Shown: positions 9,550 through 17,754 of the stretch, in pieces | How the letters are laid out: each line of letters starts with the position of its first letter | Position numbering within the stretch: the first letter of the stretch is position 1 | From: Candidatus Arthromitus sp. SFB-turkey | GTDB taxonomy: Bacteria > Bacillota > Clostridia > Clostridiales > Clostridiaceae | Reading direction: 5' to 3' | NCBI RefSeq assembly: GCF_001655775.1 | Contig: NZ_LXFF01000034.1 | Span: forward strand, 1 to 32,572 | Length of the DNA stretch: 32,572 nt | Notes under the pieces: model-generated | The model's input: the letters and a program-made list of their open reading frames with translations, nothing else | Databases searched by the model: none | Told to the model about the DNA's origin: nothing | Made by a program: the position numbers and the translations under genes

Positions 9550-9585
9550 AAAAGGCAATTAGATAATTTCTAATTGCCTTTTTTG
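9550..9585 (+). terminator. Intrinsic terminator after the DUF4214 gene
   Basis: A perfect 14-base stem, left arm 9550-9563 and right arm 9569-9582 (core GGCAATTAGA with TCTAATTGCC), loop TAATT, followed by T residues. It is similar in sequence to the terminator at the other end of the restriction island (17775-17811). Confidence 0.9.
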
Positions 9586-9618: not shown

Positions 9619-9645
9619 TTTTGTTATTTATAACACATAACAAAA
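9619..9645. promoter_or_regulatory. Upstream operator-like dyad of the RM operon
   Basis: TTTTGTTAT (9619-9627) and ATAACAAAA (9637-9645) form a perfect 9-base inverted repeat around a 9-base spacer. The core TGTTAT-N9-ATAACA recurs at 9704-9724. This copy lies upstream of the -35 element. No regulator gene is visible in the window. Confidence 0.6.
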
Positions 9646-9662
9646 AAGTTTGCTAAAAATTA

Positions 9663-9691
9663 TTTACAAATTTAAAATTGCGATTTATAAT
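9663..9691 (+). promoter_or_regulatory. Promoter of the type I RM operon
   Basis: TTTACA at 9663-9668 and TATAAT at 9686-9691 are separated by 17 bases. Expected transcription start is near 9698. The promoter is bracketed by the two matching dyads, the downstream one lying in the untranslated leader. Confidence 0.8.
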
Positions 9692-9703
9692 TTAATTGAA
9701 AAA

Positions 9704-9724
9704 TGTTATTTTTACACCATAACA
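9704..9724. promoter_or_regulatory. Downstream operator-like dyad in the RM leader
   Basis: TGTTAT (9704-9709) and ATAACA (9719-9724) with a 9-base spacer, the same architecture as the copy 82 bases upstream; the spacers are also similar (TTATAACAC and TTTTACACC). It lies just after the predicted transcription start and before the GAGGTG ribosome-binding site of the first gene, where a bound repressor would block transcription. Confidence 0.6.
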
Positions 9725-9738
9725 AAAAGAGGTGAAAT

Positions 9739-10323
9739 ATGAAACTTAAAGAAGTGGCTTTTTTAAGAACTGGTCTTGTATTAAATAGAAAACAGGTCAA
9801 ACCTACAGATGTTGAAAAATTTAAATATAAGCAACTTACTTTAAAATCTATAAATAATGATGAAGTTATTAATGAGAATTATTTAGAAGAATTTATTTCA
9901 AATGAAAATTTGAAAGAAGAATATTTTACTCATAAAAATGATGTGATTGTACGTTTATCTTATCCATATACGGCAATTATAATTGATGAACAAACTGAGG
10001 GACTTCTTGTGCCTTCACATTTTGTCATTATAAGATGTGATTTAAAAAAAATTATACCAGGATATTTGCAGTGCATACTTAATTCAAATGAAATTCATAA
10101 ACAAATTTCACTGTCAACTAGCACATCAATGCTTGGAACAATACGACCATTATTTTTTTCAGAGCTTGAAATTAAAATTATATCATTAGAAAAGCAAGAA
10201 AAATTAGCTGAAATAAATAGGTTGTGCAAAGAAGAAATAATTTTACTTACAAAGTTGAAAGAGCAAAAGCAGAAGTATAATTCTCTGCTTATAAATAAAA
10301 TTCAAAAAGAAATGGAGAAATAA
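9739..10323 (+). CDS. Single-TRD HsdS-like (half-size specificity) protein
   Basis: The 194-residue protein resembles half of a type I restriction specificity subunit: one target-recognition-like domain (about 1-150) starting KLKEVAFLRTGLVLNRK, with V-P-HF-IIRCD and the late SELEIKIISLEKQEKLAEIN junction that precedes the conserved helix, then a Lys/Glu-rich coiled coil (150-194). A full HsdS of about 390 residues with two TRDs is encoded farther on at 12700, so this is not simply the operon's only S gene. It could be a stand-alone specificity module that dimerises, an HsdS-related regulator or a relic. GAGGTG at 9730-9735 sets the start. It is the first gene of the operon, four bases before hsdM. 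Confidence 0.75.
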   Translation: MKLKEVAFLRTGLVLNRKQVKPTDVEKFKYKQLTLKSINNDEVINENYLEEFISNENLKEEYFTHKNDVIVRLSYPYTAIIIDEQTEGLLVPSHFVIIRCDLKKIIPGYLQCILNSNEIHKQISLSTSTSMLGTIRPLFFSELEIKIISLEKQEKLAEINRLCKEEIILLTKLKEQKQKYNSLLINKIQKEMEK

Positions 10324-10327
10324 TAGA

Positions 10328-11860
10328 ATGACTACAAGAAAAGATGTTGAGAGAGTTTTGTGGAATGCGTGCGATAGTTTTAGAGGTAAAATTGATAGTT
10401 CACGTTATAAGGATTATATTCTTTCAATGTTATTTGTCAAATATTTAAGTGATGTTTATAAGGAAAGGAAAGAACAATATATAAATCGTTATGAAGGCGA
10501 TGAAATACGTGTTGAACGTGCAATGAAGCGAGAGCCTGTTTATTTAAATGAAGAAATTACTTTTGATTATCTTTATAGTAAAAGAAATGATAATGAAATA
10601 GGGCAAATAATAAATGTTGCTTTGAATTCTATTGAAGAGCATAACAGTGGAAAACTTAGAGATGTTTTTCGTTCTATTGATTTTAATAGTACGGTTGATT
10701 TTGGGGAAGTGAAACAGAAAAATGCTACTTTAAAAAATTTGCTTGAAGATTTTAATGTGCTTGATTTAAGACCTAGTCAGCTTGAGGAAGGTGATATTAT
10801 TGGAGATGCCTATGAATACATGATTGCGAATTTTGCTTCTGATGCAGGTAAAAAGGGAGGAGAATTTTACACTCCGAGTAATGTTTCAAAACTTGTTGCA
10901 AAATTAGTAGAGCCGAAAGAAAATGATAGAATTTATGATCCAACTTGTGGGAGTGGTGGTTTATTACTTAAGGCGTTTAAAGAAGTTGAGTCTAAAAAAG
11001 TTGCTATTTATGGTCAAGAACAAAATGCTCAAACTTGGGCGCTTTGTAAGATGAATATGTTTCTTCATGAAATTGACGATGCACAAATTCATATGGGAGA
11101 TACGCTTTCAGAGCCTAAGACAATTGAAAATGATAGTTTAATGAAATTTCAAGTAATTGTTTCGAATCCTCCATTTTCTTTAGATAAGTGGGATAGTGGA
11201 TTTTTATCAGCGGTAGCAAATGAGAATTCTAGTAAGAAAGAAAAAATGAGACCTGAGCTTGATTATTATAAGCGTTTTGAGTGGGGAGTTCCTCCAACAT
11301 CTAAAGGGGATTATGCTTTTGTTCTTCATATGATTAGTTGTTTAGATGGAGAAAGTGGAAGAATGGGAGTTGTTTTACCTCATGGGGTTTTGTTTAGGGG
11401 AGCGTCTGAGGGTAGAATTCGTAAAGAGATTATTGAATGTAATCTTTTAGATGCAGTAATTGGGTTGCCAGCGAATTTATTTTTTGGAACTGGTATACCT
11501 GCGTGTATTTTAGTGTTTAAGAAAAACAGAAAAACAAAAGATGTATTATTTATTGATGCGTCAGGAGAAGGGAATTTTGAGAAGGGCAAGAATCAAAATG
11601 TCTTACGTGAATGTGATATAGAAAAGATAGTTAGTACTTATAAGAATAGGGAAGTAGTGGAAAAATATAGTTATGTTGCGATGGTTGAGGAAATTAGGGA
11701 AAATGATTATAACTTAAATATTCCACGTTATGTTGATACTTTTGAGGAAGAAGAAATTGTTGATATTGATGAGGTAAAACAAAATATTGAAAAAATTGAA
11801 AATGAACTTCAATCTGTTCAATCTCAAATGAAAAAATATTTGGAGGAATTGGGATTATGA
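10328..11860 (+). CDS. hsdM: Type I restriction-modification methyltransferase subunit
   Basis: Transfers methyl from S-adenosylmethionine to adenine in the sites chosen by HsdS, and forms the core of the restriction complex. The 510-residue protein has the N-terminal helical domain (about 1-150), the KGGEFYTPSNVSKLVAKL entry to the catalytic domain (about 176), AdoMet motif I DPTCGSGG (204-211) and catalytic motif IV NPPF (280-283), which marks N6-adenine methylation. A C-terminal coiled coil (about 480-507) fits contact with HsdS. The Shine-Dalgarno GGAG is inside the end of the previous gene. The last bases overlap the next gene as ATGA. Confidence 0.96.
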   Translation: MTTRKDVERVLWNACDSFRGKIDSSRYKDYILSMLFVKYLSDVYKERKEQYINRYEGDEIRVERAMKREPVYLNEEITFDYLYSKRNDNEIGQIINVALNSIEEHNSGKLRDVFRSIDFNSTVDFGEVKQKNATLKNLLEDFNVLDLRPSQLEEGDIIGDAYEYMIANFASDAGKKGGEFYTPSNVSKLVAKLVEPKENDRIYDPTCGSGGLLLKAFKEVESKKVAIYGQEQNAQTWALCKMNMFLHEIDDAQIHMGDTLSEPKTIENDSLMKFQVIVSNPPFSLDKWDSGFLSAVANENSSKKEKMRPELDYYKRFEWGVPPTSKGDYAFVLHMISCLDGESGRMGVVLPHGVLFRGASEGRIRKEIIECNLLDAVIGLPANLFFGTGIPACILVFKKNRKTKDVLFIDASGEGNFEKGKNQNVLRECDIEKIVSTYKNREVVEKYSYVAMVEEIRENDYNLNIPRYVDTFEEEEIVDIDEVKQNIEKIENELQSVQSQMKKYLEELGL

Positions 11861-12690
11861 AAAAATTTATATATTTGGATCAAGATTATATTAATTCATA
11901 TTTAGCACAAATGAAAAAAGGATTACTTGTAAATTGCAGTAATGAGAAACAATCTTCTGAATCAACTTCACAGACAAAAGATTTGAATTTAAATGGAGTG
12001 ATTAGTGGTGAAATTGGAGTAGAAATACTCAAAATTTTAGGTTTAAATTTAAATGGTCAAGTTGAAAAAAATAATAGTTCAACTATATCGGATGAAAATA
12101 TTAAAAGTAGAATTGAGGAAAAAGTTTTACATGATTATTCTTTTGAAATGGTTGAAAAAATTTTAAAAGATAAAAATTTAATAAAAATAAATGATTTTAA
12201 TACCGGAGATATTATTTTAGAAGAAAATGAAATTACAATTATAGATTTTGAGTATTTTAAAAATATTTTTGGAAATGATGGGATTTTTAAAAATTTTAGG
12301 AACTTAAATAGAATAAATAAAAATACGAATTTAACGTTAAACAATAGAGAAAATGATATAAAATTTAGTTATGAAATAATAGTAATAATACAAAAAATAA
12401 TTCCTTATAAAAGATTTGCTATTTGTGGTAATTATTTAATATTATTAGATGATAAAAATTTTAGAGATAATCCAGATATAATTGCATTTAAATATGGCGG
12501 AAAAATAAAGTTTATGGGAAATATTACCAATATTATTAATATACAAGATAACCAAGATTATCAAGATGATTCAATTTTAGATGCTTTTAAAAATTTTTAT
12601 AAGATAATAAACGAAAGTATATTTGAAATGTTTTCAAATATTAACAAAATATATATTATTCATGCCATAGCATTGTATTATGAAAGTTAG
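11857..12690 (+). CDS. Unassigned protein inside the RM operon, possibly DUF6414-like
   Basis: A 277-residue, Asn/Ile/Lys-rich protein whose gene overlaps hsdM by four bases and ends nine bases before the hsdS start, so it is co-translated with the modification enzyme. The N-terminus KKFIYLDQDYINSYLAQ followed by a GL turn resembles a family I know as DUF6414, in which an h-YLD-x4-S-hAQ start precedes a Ser/Glu-rich segment (here about 28-45) and a Gly-containing segment (about 46-72); this recollection is not checked. No catalytic motif, signal peptide or clear membrane segment is visible. A beta-rich C-terminal half (about 170-235) seems likely. It is not a normal hsd component. Possible roles are regulation or inhibition of the RM complex, or an extra defence component. 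The function is unknown. Confidence 0.6.
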   Translation: MKKFIYLDQDYINSYLAQMKKGLLVNCSNEKQSSESTSQTKDLNLNGVISGEIGVEILKILGLNLNGQVEKNNSSTISDENIKSRIEEKVLHDYSFEMVEKILKDKNLIKINDFNTGDIILEENEITIIDFEYFKNIFGNDGIFKNFRNLNRINKNTNLTLNNRENDIKFSYEIIVIIQKIIPYKRFAICGNYLILLDDKNFRDNPDIIAFKYGGKIKFMGNITNIINIQDNQDYQDDSILDAFKNFYKIINESIFEMFSNINKIYIIHAIALYYES

Positions 12691-12699
12691 GGGGATATC

Positions 12700-13878
12700 A
12701 TGACGAAAGAAATCAAACAACGAATTGATCAAATAAAAAATGGTGAAGTCCCTCAAGGGTATAAGAAAACAAAAATTGGAATTGTTCCGAATGAGTGGGA
12801 AGAAAATAAATTGAAAGATATAGCCCCACTTCAAAGAGGTTTTGATTTACCAAGTTATCAAATTAATAAAGGAGTTTATCCTATATGTTGCTCAAATGGA
12901 ATTACTGGATATCACAATGAATTTAAAGTTAAAGGACCTGGAGTGTGGACAGGACGTTCAGGTACAATTGGAAAAGTTTTTTATACTGAGAAAAATTATT
13001 GGGCTCATAATACAAGTTTATGGGTAACAAATTTTATAAATAGCATACCAAAATATATTTTTTATCTATATACATTTATAGATTTTAGTAAATATGATGC
13101 TGGATCTACTGTTCCTACATTAAATAGGAATGATATTCATTCTTTAAAAATATCAATTCCCTCCATAGCTGAACAGCAAAAAATTTCCGAAATACTTTCA
13201 ACACAAGACAAAGTAATTGAATTGAAAGAGAAGCTTTTAAAAGAGAAAGAGAAACAGAAAAAATATTTAGTACAAAGTCTTGTTACAGGAAAGAAACGTT
13301 TAAAAGGTTTTAATGGTGAATGGAAGAAAGTTAAGTTGGGAAATTTAATGAACGAAAATAATGAATTTGTTGGTGATAGAAATATAAAACCAGTAGCTAT
13401 TGGAGTTTATGGAATAAGACAAAGAGAAGATATTTTTAGTAAAGATTTATCTAAAAATTATTCACGAAATAAAGTTTTTAAAAATAATCAAATTTGTTTT
13501 GGGATAGGAACAAATCAAATTGTTTACGGAGTTAATATAGTAAATAAAATTTATTGTGTTAGTCCTGCTTATAAAGTATTAGACATCGTAAATATTGATC
13601 CGTATTATTTAAAATTATTATTAGATATTAATAATTTAAGATTAAGTAGTTTGTATTTAATTATCTCTGCAAGACAAGGAAAAAGTGTAGATTTTGATGG
13701 ATTATTTAATGAAGAATTTGATATTCCATTATTCGAAGAACAAAAAGCAATTGCAGAAATCTTGACTACAGCAGATAAAGAACTTAAACTATTACAAGAG
13801 GAACTGGAAGAGGAAAAGCGAAAGAAAAAAGCATTAATGCAGTTATTATTGACGGGAATTGTTAGAGTGAAAGTATAA
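12700..13878 (+). CDS. hsdS: Type I restriction-modification specificity subunit
   Basis: Determines the bipartite DNA sequence recognised by the complex. The 392 residues show the standard layout: first target-recognition domain (about 20-150), conserved helix 1 starting IAEQQKISEILSTQDKVIE (about 155-195), second domain beginning at GEWKKVKLG (about 205-340) and conserved helix 2 with EEQKAIAEILTTADKELK (about 347-385). The two helix regions are clearly repeats of each other. GGGGG lies just before the ATG. The gene is followed by a hairpin with a T-tract, so hsdR may be read at reduced level. Confidence 0.94.
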   Translation: MTKEIKQRIDQIKNGEVPQGYKKTKIGIVPNEWEENKLKDIAPLQRGFDLPSYQINKGVYPICCSNGITGYHNEFKVKGPGVWTGRSGTIGKVFYTEKNYWAHNTSLWVTNFINSIPKYIFYLYTFIDFSKYDAGSTVPTLNRNDIHSLKISIPSIAEQQKISEILSTQDKVIELKEKLLKEKEKQKKYLVQSLVTGKKRLKGFNGEWKKVKLGNLMNENNEFVGDRNIKPVAIGVYGIRQREDIFSKDLSKNYSRNKVFKNNQICFGIGTNQIVYGVNIVNKIYCVSPAYKVLDIVNIDPYYLKLLLDINNLRLSSLYLIISARQGKSVDFDGLFNEEFDIPLFEEQKAIAEILTTADKELKLLQEELEEEKRKKKALMQLLLTGIVRVKV

Positions 13879-13948: not shown

Positions 13949-16900
13949 GTGAACGGAGATTTATTTTCAGAATTTAATATAAGCCAAAAACCTGCCCTAG
14001 AACTTTTACAAAAAATGGGTTATACATATATTTCTCCTGAGGAATGCGATATTCAAAGGGGTTCTTTATATAAAGTGCTTCTAAAAGGAATATTAAGAGA
14101 ACAACTTAAAAAACTTAATAAAGTTAATTTTGGAAGTCAGTCTATGGAATTTTCTTCTGCTAACATAGAAAAAGCTATTGAAGATCTGGACGAACCTTTG
14201 ACCAATGGACTAGTTCCAACTAGTGAAAAAATTTATAATATTCTTCTTCTTGGAAAAAGTTATTCCGAAATCGTTGGAAATGGAAAAGTTCAAAACTTTA
14301 ATTTAAAATATATAGATTGGGAAAATATAGAAAATAATGTTTTCCATGTTACAGATGAATATCAAGTTGAAAGTATTGATAAACAACATAACGCCCGTCC
14401 CGATATCGTTCTATTTGTTAACGGTATCCCTTTCGCTGTAATTGAATGTAAAAAATCTGATGTTTCTGTTGAACAAGGTATAGAACAAACCATAAGAAAT
14501 CAAAAATCAGAATATATTCCACAACTCTATAAATTTGCCCAAATTCTCATGTCAACAAATAAAAATAATGTAAAATACGCAACAACAAACACTCCAAAAA
14601 AGTTTTGGAGCGTGTGGAAAGAACAAGATGAATCTTTTTTAGAACAATCAATACCAAAATATATTTCTGATAGATTTGCAACTGTTCAAGACAAAAATAT
14701 TATTTTTATGTTTTCAAAAGAAAGACTCTTAGAACTTACAAAATATTTTGTACTCTTTGATGCAAATGTGAAAAAAATATGTAGATATCAACAATATTTC
14801 GCAATCAAAGAAATTATAAAAACAATTAATGAAAATGATGAAAATGGAAATAGACAAAGTGGTGTTATTTGGCACACTCAAGGAAGTGGAAAGTCTTTAA
14901 CAATGGTAATGCTTTCGAAATATATTTTGATGGAATTTTCACAGTTTAACCCCAAAGTTGCAATTGTTACAGACAGAAAAGAACTTGATTTTCAAATTTC
15001 AAAAACTTTTGCCCATACAAGGCTTAACCCTGCAAGAGCTACAAGTGGAAAACATTTAATCGAACTTATTGAAAATGGTAAAGCTGATATTATTACATGT
15101 ATTATAAACAAATTTAATACTGTTGAAAGTAGTGGTTTAAAACGTGAAGGAAGAGATATTTTTATTTTAGTTGATGAAAGCCATCGTTCAAATTATGGAG
15201 AATTGGCAATAAAAATGAGAAAAGTTTTTCCAAATGCTTGTTACATTGGTTTTACTGGTACGCCTTTAATGAAAAAGGAAAAGAACACAATGACAAAGTT
15301 TGGAAAACTAATTCATAAATACACAATTAAAGATGGTGTTGATGATAATGCAATTGTTCCTCTTATTTATGAAGGGCGTTTTGTTGAACAAAAAGTCGAT
15401 GAGCAAAATATAGACCTTTGGTTTGAAGAAATTACAAAAAGACTTACTGACAATCAGAAAAAAGACTTGAAAAATAAATGGAGTAAAATAAGAAGACTTA
15501 CTTCAACCGATGCAAGAATTAAGCGTATTGCACTTGATATTAATAGACATTTTATTGATGGTTATAAAGATACTGGATTTAAGGCCATGCTCGCAACAAA
15601 TTATAAAAAAGATGCAATTCGTTATCTAGAAGCATTTGAACAAATGGGAGATTTAAATTGTGCTGTTGTAATTTCTTCTCCTGATATGCGTGAGGGTCAT
15701 GATGATGTAGATGAATCAAATGACGACAAAGTAAAATCATATTGGGCAAAAATTATAAGAGAATATGGAAGTGAAGAGCGTTACGAAGAAGTTGTTAAAG
15801 ATAGATTTATTCACGGAAAACATGGAGAAGATGAGGGAATTGATATTTTAATTGTTTGCTCAAAACTTTTAACAGGATTTGACGCACCTATTTGTCAAGT
15901 TCTTTATATTGATAAGGAACTTAAAGAACATTCACTATTACAGGCTATTGCTAGAACAAACCGTTTAATGGAAGGAAAAGATTACGGACTAATTGTTGAC
16001 TATAGAGGACTTATAGAAAAGCTTGACAGTGCAATGAATATGTATAGTGGAGCAGGACTTGAATTATATGATGGGGAAGATCTTAAGGGAACTATAACAG
16101 ATGTCATATCTGTAATTGGAGATTTAAGGAATAGTTATTCTCGTATTTCAGATTTATTTTTACATATAAAAAATAAAGATGATATTGAAGAAATTGAAAC
16201 TTATTTAGAAGATGAAAGTATACGTAATGATTTTTATAATTTTCTTTGTGATTTTGGTAGAAATCTTAATACTGCTTTGAATTCTGAAGCGGTTTATTCT
16301 AAAATTTCTCCTGAAGAGTTAAAGAAGTATAAACAATCTTTTACCTTTTGGCAAAAACTCCGTAGAAGTGTAAAAGTAAGATATTTTGATGCTATTGATA
16401 ACAAAGAATATGAACCACTTATGCAAAATTTACTTGATACACATTTATCTGTTGAAGGTCTAAGAAAAATTACAGCTCCTGTAGATATATTGAATAAAGA
16501 AGAGTTTGAACGTGAAATTAAAGAACTTACTTCTAAAAAAGCACAGGCAGATGCTATAAAAAGTCGAATCACTAAAAGTATAAGTGAAAAATATGACGAA
16601 AATCCTGCATATTATGAAAGCTTTTCTGAAAGAATTAAAATAGCTTTACAAGAATACAAAGATAGAAGAATTAATGATGCAGAATATCTTGAAAAAATGA
16701 AAAAAATAATGGAAGATTATTTTCAAAGAAGAAGCAGTGTAAATTATCCTGATAAAATTAAGAATGATGTACACGCTCAAGCTTTTTATGGTGTACTAGG
16801 TGCTCTTTTAAATGATAAATTTGATTTAGATTTTATAGCAGAAATTTCAATTGAGATTACAAAAATAATTAAGAAACATAGCAAAGTTGATTGGAGAAAT

Positions 16901-17044
16901 AATAAATCTGTTCATGATAAAATTTCACAAGATATTGAAGATTTATTTTATGATTATGGTGAAGATGTACGTGAAAAAATTTCTCATGATTTAACTGACA
17001 AAATTGTAGAGAATGTAAAGACTGTTGCACTTAGGAGGTTTTAA
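13949..17044 (+). CDS. hsdR: Type I restriction endonuclease subunit
   Basis: ATP-driven translocase and nuclease of the complex, cutting unmethylated foreign DNA. The 1031 residues carry the PD-(D/E)xK nuclease site (D152, E166, K168 in PDIVLFVNGIPFAVIECKK), helicase motif I TQGSGKS (310-316), DEAH-like DESH (409-412), FTGTP (435-439) and a late motif with LLTGFDAP and QAIARTNR. The C-terminal third is the helical HsdR tail. The start is GTG at 13949, chosen because AGGAGG ends six bases before it. The first part of the gene uses more C-ending codons than its neighbours, which fits acquisition by transfer. It overlaps the next gene by one base. Confidence 0.96.
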   Translation: MNGDLFSEFNISQKPALELLQKMGYTYISPEECDIQRGSLYKVLLKGILREQLKKLNKVNFGSQSMEFSSANIEKAIEDLDEPLTNGLVPTSEKIYNILLLGKSYSEIVGNGKVQNFNLKYIDWENIENNVFHVTDEYQVESIDKQHNARPDIVLFVNGIPFAVIECKKSDVSVEQGIEQTIRNQKSEYIPQLYKFAQILMSTNKNNVKYATTNTPKKFWSVWKEQDESFLEQSIPKYISDRFATVQDKNIIFMFSKERLLELTKYFVLFDANVKKICRYQQYFAIKEIIKTINENDENGNRQSGVIWHTQGSGKSLTMVMLSKYILMEFSQFNPKVAIVTDRKELDFQISKTFAHTRLNPARATSGKHLIELIENGKADIITCIINKFNTVESSGLKREGRDIFILVDESHRSNYGELAIKMRKVFPNACYIGFTGTPLMKKEKNTMTKFGKLIHKYTIKDGVDDNAIVPLIYEGRFVEQKVDEQNIDLWFEEITKRLTDNQKKDLKNKWSKIRRLTSTDARIKRIALDINRHFIDGYKDTGFKAMLATNYKKDAIRYLEAFEQMGDLNCAVVISSPDMREGHDDVDESNDDKVKSYWAKIIREYGSEERYEEVVKDRFIHGKHGEDEGIDILIVCSKLLTGFDAPICQVLYIDKELKEHSLLQAIARTNRLMEGKDYGLIVDYRGLIEKLDSAMNMYSGAGLELYDGEDLKGTITDVISVIGDLRNSYSRISDLFLHIKNKDDIEEIETYLEDESIRNDFYNFLCDFGRNLNTALNSEAVYSKISPEELKKYKQSFTFWQKLRRSVKVRYFDAIDNKEYEPLMQNLLDTHLSVEGLRKITAPVDILNKEEFEREIKELTSKKAQADAIKSRITKSISEKYDENPAYYESFSERIKIALQEYKDRRINDAEYLEKMKKIMEDYFQRRSSVNYPDKIKNDVHAQAFYGVLGALLNDKFDLDFIAEISIEITKIIKKHSKVDWRNNKSVHDKISQDIEDLFYDYGEDVREKISHDLTDKIVENVKTVALRRF

Positions 17045-17754
17045 TGTTAAGAGTAGTTTCTGCTATGGATAGAGACATTAATTATACACTTACATACAAA
17101 AACGTAAAAAATATTAATTTAAGAATTAAATTTGATGGAAGTGTTTGTGTTTCAGCGCCTAAATATATTGATGTTTTTAGAATAGATGATTTTGTTATTT
17201 CAAAAGGAGAATATGTTTTATCATCAATAGAGAAATTTAAAAAGATGCAAGGTTTTAAGAAGGCACCTAAAAAATATGTTAGTGGTGAAAGTTTTAAGAT
17301 TTTGGGAAAAGATTTAAGATTAAAAGTTATTATATCTAATGATGAAGAAGTTTATAGTGATGGTGTGTTTATTTATTTGAAAGTTTGCAATGATGATTTT
17401 TTGAAAAAACAAAATCTTATTAATAAATGGATAAGTGAGAAAACAGTCGAGATTTATAATGAAATTGCAAATGAGGTTTATAAAAAATTTGAAAAGTATG
17501 GAGTTTCATTTCCAGAAATAAAAATTAGGAAAATGTCTACAAGATGGGGATCATGTCAACCAATAAAAGGAGTTATTACAATTAATTCAAGATTAATTGA
17601 AGCTTCAAGGATATGTATTGAATATGTAATGATGCATGAGTTTTGTCATTTTATTCATGCGAATCATTCAAAAAACTTTTATTTACTACTTCAAGTAATG
17701 ATGCCAGATTGGAAATATCGAAAAAATATTTTAGAATCGAGTATATATTTTTAG
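17044..17754 (+). CDS. YgjP/SprT-type zinc metallopeptidase
   Basis: A 236-residue protein of the YgjP-like (DUF45) family. It has the WGSCQPIKGVITINSRLI segment (about 177-194) and the zinc motif HEFCH (H198, E199, H202) followed by H--NHSKNFY, as in M48-like peptidases. Proteins of this family often sit beside hsdR, where their role is not established. The TAATG overlap with hsdR shows co-translation. It is the last gene of the RM operon and is closed by a terminator. The substrate is unknown. Confidence 0.88.
   Translation: MLRVVSAMDRDINYTLTYKNVKNINLRIKFDGSVCVSAPKYIDVFRIDDFVISKGEYVLSSIEKFKKMQGFKKAPKKYVSGESFKILGKDLRLKVIISNDEEVYSDGVFIYLKVCNDDFLKKQNLINKWISEKTVEIYNEIANEVYKKFEKYGVSFPEIKIRKMSTRWGSCQPIKGVITINSRLIEASRICIEYVMMHEFCHFIHANHSKNFYLLLQVMMPDWKYRKNILESSIYF

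Follow-up and report, generated by a model that had tools for sequence, protein, structure and literature searches.

Twin palindromes as predicted operators of a type I restriction-modification operon headed by a single-TRD HsdS relative in Candidatus Arthromitus sp. SFB-turkey

The stretch of DNA analysed here, hereafter called the window, covers 32,572 nucleotides (positions 1 to 32,572 of contig NZ_LXFF01000034.1) of the genome of Candidatus Arthromitus sp. SFB-turkey, which comprises 1,631,326 bases in 41 contigs (1.63 Mb). It contains the genes for HsdM, an HsdS protein with two target-recognition domains (TRDs) and HsdR, all recognized by searches with Pfam, PADLOC and NCBIfam, and thus a complete set of type I restriction-modification genes. 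They belong to the following operon:

9739..10323, + strand: half-S, 194-aa single-TRD HsdS-like protein, the proposed autoregulator (PADLOC Specificity_I, 1.6e-12)
10328..11860, + strand: hsdM, type I methyltransferase subunit (Pfam N6_Mtase, 9e-109, and HsdM_N; NCBIfam hsdM above cut-off)
11857..12690, + strand: DUF6414 protein, accessory gene (Pfam, 5.7e-20)
12700..13878, + strand: full-length HsdS with two TRDs (Pfam Methylase_S, two stretches)
13949..17044, + strand: hsdR, type I endonuclease subunit (Pfam HSDR_N and SWI2_SNF2; NCBIfam hsdR above cut-off)
17044..17754, + strand: YgjP-like metallopeptidase, the final gene of the operon (Pfam, 1.7e-49)

The operon order is half-S, HsdM, DUF6414, HsdS, HsdR and YgjP, and the usual order in the 19 stretches compared was half-S, HsdM, an optional accessory gene, HsdS, HsdR and YgjP, with the YgjP family present in 13 of the 19. 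As in operons led by hsdS_short, the window has a single-TRD HsdS homologue of about 190 aa directly 5' of hsdM and a separate full hsdS, whereas the staphylococcal order hsdR-hsdS_short-hsdM-hsdS_long is not matched, hsdR being located downstream in the window as in other clostridial relatives. Half-S adjoins HsdM in the operons compared, with the exception of one in which a Bro-N gene is placed in between. The optional accessory gene encodes a Bro-N domain in the one case tested, and the DUF6414 protein occupies the slot where several relatives carry a Bro-N domain protein; no relative of DUF6414 was identified in the other 18 stretches. In one relative (L124 in genome G349), the HsdS region is split into two open reading frames of 215 and 204 aa. 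No HTH family or known regulator domain was identified in the 10 proteins scanned with Pfam; the initial annotation had noted no C-protein gene in the window.

The half-S protein of the window has no Pfam match of its own at 1e-3. The profile of its family (A1) gave weak matches to solved HsdS chains, with E-values of 2e-4 to 3e-4, and five half-S relatives match Pfam Methylase_S above the gathering score. Taken together with the PADLOC match, these results suggest that the product of the gene at 9739 is a relative of HsdS with a single TRD, for which we use the name half-S. The AlphaFold model of half-S was poor (pLDDT 54.6), and a Foldseek search with this model returned 48 matches, none of which had an E-value of 0.001 or better. 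The chains named Esub1 in PDB entries 8vsq and 8vsr, of about 200 aa, weakly match profile A1 (E 0.0016-0.0017) and could be half-size relatives of half-S.

The region upstream of the operon contains a promoter-like sequence flanked by two dyads:

9622..9642, no strand: predicted operator 1, the upstream dyad TGTTAT-N9-ATAACA (TGTTATTTATAACACATAACA), centred at about -66 relative to the inferred start
9663..9668, + strand: -35 hexamer TTTACA, matching the consensus at 11 of 12 positions jointly with the -10 hexamer
9686..9691, + strand: -10 hexamer TATAAT, a consensus match separated by N17 from the -35 hexamer
9704..9724, no strand: predicted operator 2, the downstream dyad (TGTTATTTTTACACCATAACA) in the 5' leader, centred at about +16, ahead of the ribosome-binding site

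TTTACA-N17-TATAAT was the top scorer among five promoter-like sites on both strands between 9500 and 9800, where 2.1 were expected, and the distance to the -10 hexamer places the transcription start at about 9698. Operator 2 is followed by a ribosome-binding site and then by the ATG at 9739. The two dyads, which have identical 6-bp arms and 9-bp spacers and are located 82 bp apart, lie around the -35 and -10 hexamers just as the initial annotation had described. It had set the start of the pair at 9619, whereas the first arm begins at 9622, although the three additional base pairs extend that dyad symmetrically. A strong bidirectional terminator at 9550-9582 (14 pairs, -17.8 kcal/mol) separates the operon from a DUF4214 gene, and the single match in a search against Rfam, which was below threshold, fell on this terminator.

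The exact sequence TGTTAT-N9-ATAACA occurs in two places in the genome, both at the promoter of this operon, and the reversed pattern used as a control occurs in none; the random genome-wide frequency that had been named as grounds for dismissing the motif was thus not observed. From base composition, about 1.2 exact sites per genome would be expected by chance, compared with about 8e-5 exact pairs within 82 bp. Whereas a single exact site is unremarkable in such an A+T-rich genome (the G+C content of the window is 27%), the same does not hold for an exact pair this close together. The window pair has an identity of 24/24, and twin dyads of at least 23/24, with any half-site, were found in 11 of 4080 shuffled upstream regions. 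A search with two mismatches inside the window alone yielded 9 sites against 8.07 expected, which is not above chance, and the signal is thus the exact pair together with its conservation.

We also considered the possibility of a wider regulon, which was rejected at the level of one mismatch, given 22 such dyads in the genome as compared with 27 in the control. Likewise, the looser pattern WGTYAW-N9-WTRACA stayed at background level both here (8 forward, 18 in the control) and overall in 18 genomes, among the matches listed, with counts that exceeded the control in some of them (for example G061, G349 and G535) and fell below it in others. An RNA hairpin formed by the downstream dyad was also rejected, as the dyad does not form the minimum-energy hairpin of the leader (z -1.29).

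To place the window among its relatives, half-S loci were gathered by protein similarity and not by DNA. A protein search with P0001 gave matches in 17 of 146 genomes, several of these being full-length HsdS; profile A1 was searched against 391 genomes, and profile A4, at E 1e-20, recovered 13 of 398 and 10 of 225 genomes. Plasmids were also searched, and a contig scan added two half-S loci, from Terrisporobacter and a Campylobacteraceae MAG, the sampling of the Campylobacterota consisting of one genome contig and two plasmids. Scans of phages and IMG/VR gave no confirmed half-S relative, the pattern matches in IMG/VR included.

For a de novo test, the window was held out and all 4096 hexamer palindromes with spacers of 3-15 were counted in the 180 bp that precede each of 21 half-S genes, after removal of the near-duplicates L069, L072 and L023 and of repeat fetches of the same place. 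TGTTAT-N9-ATAACA, with at least 10 of 12 positions matched, was recovered upstream of 12 of the 21 genes, compared with 1.17 expected from shuffles. It had the most loci among the 30 palindromes listed and ranked third by z (10.0), after two one-base neighbours of itself (10.4), and N9 was the sole spacer to stand out, the others giving 0-5 loci. Inspection by eye shows the pair TGTTATTTATTACTCATGACA and TGTTATTTTTTTCTCATGACA flanking TTGACA-N17-TATAAT in L041, and the pair TGTTATATGGTAAATTTAACA and TGTTATATTATATATATAACA in L007. The dyad was found together with half-S across different families and classes.

The conservation is nevertheless partial. Nine of the 21 half-S genes have no dyad at 10/12 (L081, L020, L021, L022, L040, L042, L073, L074 and L083), so that the expectation of conserved dyads in related promoters held for 12 genes and failed for the other nine, and the picture of an autorepressed operon with paired palindromes around the promoter, conserved along with the regulator gene, fits in part. 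One of these nine (L040) has a variant dyad pair by eye, and some of the others, L081 and L083 excepted, sit close behind another gene. Furthermore, in several of the 12 positive loci the second site matches at merely 8-9 of 12 positions, which is near noise, as 9 of the 24 control loci have a match of 9/12.

As controls we used 24 HsdM loci with no half-S match upstream, among 30 of the 38 HsdM matches listed from 117 genomes, their sources being closer relatives than those of the half-S set. A 10/12 dyad within 180 bp is absent from all 24, and the one such match within 1300 bp is located at -958. The difference between 12 of 21 and none of 24 corresponds to a Fisher p of about 1e-5, with kinship ignored. 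A full HsdS open reading frame directly precedes HsdM in six of the controls, for which the 180 bp thus do not represent a promoter. The nearest controls by HsdM, G065 (66% identical) and G036 (62%), have neither half-S nor the dyad, and in G036 this is so despite the presence of HsdM, HsdS, HsdR and YgjP.

The half-sites also differ between half-S subfamilies, and some of the more distantly related half-S genes are preceded by twin dyads of another sequence. The window-like subfamily has TGTTAT-N9 half-sites, whereas twins of TGTAGT-N8-ACTACA (23/24, 55 bp apart) were found on four staphylococcal hsdRSMS plasmids, from S. nepalensis, S. equorum, S. casei and S. xylosus, the hsdS_short of which matches the half-S profile with E-values of 3e-11 and 9e-10. 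One dyad of each staphylococcal pair is located inside an apparent hsdR terminator hairpin. Twins of GTAATT-N6-AATTAC (24/24, 63-74 bp apart) were found in Halobacillus, Sutcliffiella and L. salivarius ZLS006, with weaker pairs of 22/24 in L. salivarius UCC118, L138 and L139, and twins of GCTATT-N6-AATAGC (23/24, 53-54 bp apart) in two clostridial genomes. A further search of 348 genomes gave no additional half-S of the GCTATT type at E 1e-25 and two of the staphylococcal type at E 1e-10, both with twin pairs of 22/24. In Leuconostoc (L143), half-S is located close behind another gene and the best pair is 21/24, with no strong twin dyad. This homologue, on plasmid III of Leuconostoc gasicomitatum, precedes genes for cytosine and adenine methyltransferases, and no hsdM is present in the 4-kb stretch analysed.

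Twin dyads of at least 23/24 are present in 11 of 44 half-S regions, none of 24 controls and 11 of 4080 shuffles, giving a Fisher p of 0.006 for half-S regions against controls, with kinship ignored and the 11 positives forming about seven groups of relatives. At a threshold of at least 22/24, the counts are 17 of 44, 1 of 24 and 97 of 4080, and 33 of the 44 regions lack a 23/24 pair. These numbers come from an identity-based scan that superseded a weighted-score scan; for shuffles of at least 23/24, an earlier run had given 0 of 1350, and the final figure is used here. The weighted-score scan flagged the staphylococcal and GCTATT pairs but was too blunt, since it missed the window pair (p 0.146, other repeats being chosen) and gave p 0.024 for two controls. 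The best promoter-like hexamers are placed wholly between the dyads in 6 of the 17 regions that reach 22/24 (the window, L041, L138, L142, L144 and L146) and overlap a dyad or lie elsewhere in the remainder. In the relatives, the two dyads are between 34 and 88 bp apart, a variation that indicates no common helical phase and gives no special support for looping.

Comparisons of closely related operons show that half-S is conserved while the full HsdS varies. In the pair G564 and G630, the identity is 99% for half-S, 100% for HsdM and 41% for HsdS, and the upstream DNA is identical at 180 of 180 positions. The corresponding values for S. nepalensis and S. equorum are 87%, 98% and 34%, with 95 of 100 upstream positions identical, and those for G573 and G535 are 95%, 98% and 43%, the dyad TGTTAAATAAAATATTTAACA being present in both. 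Half-S thus tracks the promoter rather than the TRDs responsible for the choice of methylation target.

Based on these sequence patterns, we regard it as very probable that the twin dyads are operators of this operon, as had been proposed from their arrangement: they are exact nowhere else in the genome, recur ahead of related operons and are absent from the control HsdM loci. We also consider it likely, if with less assurance, that the operon is autogenously controlled, which is the simplest reading, and that the binder of the predicted operators is the product of its first gene. Of the two operon proteins put forward as candidate regulators by the initial annotation, the half-S protein is thus the probable one, while the DUF6414 protein, so far confined to the window among the stretches compared, is not favoured. 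Half-S likely binds the dyads either alone or with HsdM. HsdS proteins are described as reading bipartite sites with one TRD for each half (PMC12429846), and two copies of a protein with one TRD would then read a bipartite palindrome, so that the dyads fit a half-S dimer.

In the favoured model, a half-S homodimer, perhaps with HsdM, would occupy each bipartite palindrome with one TRD per half-site. At the downstream dyad, just past the start, it would block initiation or clearance, and the upstream dyad could add to cooperativity, allow a loop to form or provide a position for activation. Half-S is probably a dedicated autoregulator that acts as a repressor, repression rather than activation being suggested by the dyad position. 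Expression of the whole half-S-HsdM-DUF6414-HsdS-HsdR-YgjP operon would in this way be kept at a defined level by half-S, and the methylation target would be determined by the separate full HsdS, which could exchange its TRDs freely. More tentatively, and with rather more doubt than confidence, we propose that half-S dimers on twin operators represent a class of TRD-based, non-HTH regulators that control type I operons in the Bacillota, with operators that change along with half-S.

Half-S may well do more than this. With expression from a foreign promoter in E. coli, proper methylation is reported to require the staphylococcal hsdS_short, which is conserved across strains that differ in their targets and is toxic when overexpressed alone, and a stabilizing role was suggested by the authors (PMC10030836). 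The requirement of the S. xylosus half-S for full methylation from a foreign promoter indicates that promoter binding is not its sole role there, and a second role besides regulation is thus likely for half-S. Since half-S seems to join the methyltransferase in the staphylococci, according to the published data, the amount of HsdM-free half-S could be what is reported to the promoter, tying expression of the operon to enzyme assembly.

The same results can be read in another way, namely that half-S serves primarily as a structural component of the methyltransferase. A complex of half-S and HsdM on the dyads would then turn the methyltransferase into its own repressor, which might respond to methylation of the bound site. 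The position of half-S next to HsdM and the conservation of HsdM (98-100%) alongside half-S in three operon pairs are consistent with this reading. We nevertheless find it unlikely: the spacing of the adenines in the dyads looks wide for type I methylation, and the two HsdM relatives (62-66%) that lack both half-S and the dyad indicate that HsdM alone is no explanation. In its favour, too, S. xylosus hsdSMS is listed with 93-98% methylation, as compared with low fractions or no proper motifs for hsdMS without hsdS_short (PMC10030836, Table 3). A switch resembling that of C proteins, which act in this manner (PMC12707154), would place activation at the upstream dyad (about -66) when half-S is low and repression at the downstream dyad (about +16) when it is high. 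The dyad positions in the window do resemble an activator site and a repressor site, but given the variable distance between the sites in the relatives (34 to 88 bp) and promoter hexamers so near the consensus (11/12) that activation is not obviously needed, this switch is improbable.

Slightly less probable again is the binding of the dyads by another regulator, either a host factor or another product of the operon. Host regulators often bind palindromes of this kind, and the comparison of loci with and without half-S is compatible with an unlinked factor. However, the exact sites are unique to this promoter with no excess of one-mismatch sites, the dyad accompanies half-S across families and classes, and its half-site changes with the half-S subfamily; the distribution of DUF6414 likewise argues against this gene. 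That the dyads have no regulatory role at all, and arose by chance or serve as an RNA hairpin or for recombination, is hardly credible. Palindromes are common at 27% G+C and chance alone would give about one exact dyad in the genome, but the held-out test recovered the same dyad and spacer, the downstream dyad does not form the favoured leader fold, and Rfam gave no family apart from the sub-threshold terminator match. We therefore favor the hypothesis of operators bound by half-S.

The closest known systems are the staphylococcal hsdRSMS operons (PMC10030836), which share with the window the single-TRD HsdS homologue of about 190 aa directly before hsdM, the full hsdS behind it, the conserved half-S with a variable full HsdS and, as found here, a promoter with twin dyads. 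They differ in the upstream location of hsdR, in the dyad TGTAGT-N8-ACTACA and in the role in methylation assigned to half-S. The passages of PMC10030836 considered here make no mention of twin dyads, and the words "repress" and "transcriptional regulator" are absent from its text. Single-TRD and full HsdS proteins also occur in one type I operon in BlihIA of Bacillus licheniformis, with its single-TRD HsdSIA, where the authors speculate on regulation through hybrid dimers, although the regulation suggested concerns enzyme specificity and not transcription (PMC12429846).

In the proposed logic, the window operon resembles that of RptR in the Gammaproteobacteria, described as a homodimer that is encoded at the head of a type I operon and acts as a repressor on its own promoter via repeated palindromes (PMC12255303). 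RptR is, however, a 9-kDa all-helical protein with 6-bp TAGCTA sites overlapping the -10, whereas the first protein in the window is HsdS-like and TAGCTA is absent between 4780 and 13394. C proteins, including one at a type I locus in Mycoplasma gallisepticum, likewise combine a small leading regulator gene, autogenous control and paired operators, but are HTH proteins (PMC12707154), a family for which no member was found in the window operon. A modification protein that doubles as a repressor is known from the Ecl18kI, SsoII and EcoRII methyltransferases, in which the regulatory DNA reader is an added HTH (PMC12707154); in half-S this task would fall to the target-recognition domain. No HsdS-type transcription regulator was found in the titles and abstract openings of the papers listed by searches of an open-access library, which is weak evidence of absence.

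Control by half-S would offer a candidate answer to the puzzle, raised in print, of why the short HsdS found in some type I systems is conserved although their long HsdS is variable (PMC10030836). It also bears on how two kinds of HsdS fit into one system, for which models were said to be lacking (PMC12429846). If correct, it would mean that target-recognition domains have been co-opted as transcription regulators and that type I operons may contain a built-in, non-HTH controller, recognizable from the sequence by a pair of palindromes ahead of its gene. In one of the relatives (L122, contig 65 of G096), half-S and hsdM are both disrupted by stops or frame changes, while both dyads are intact.
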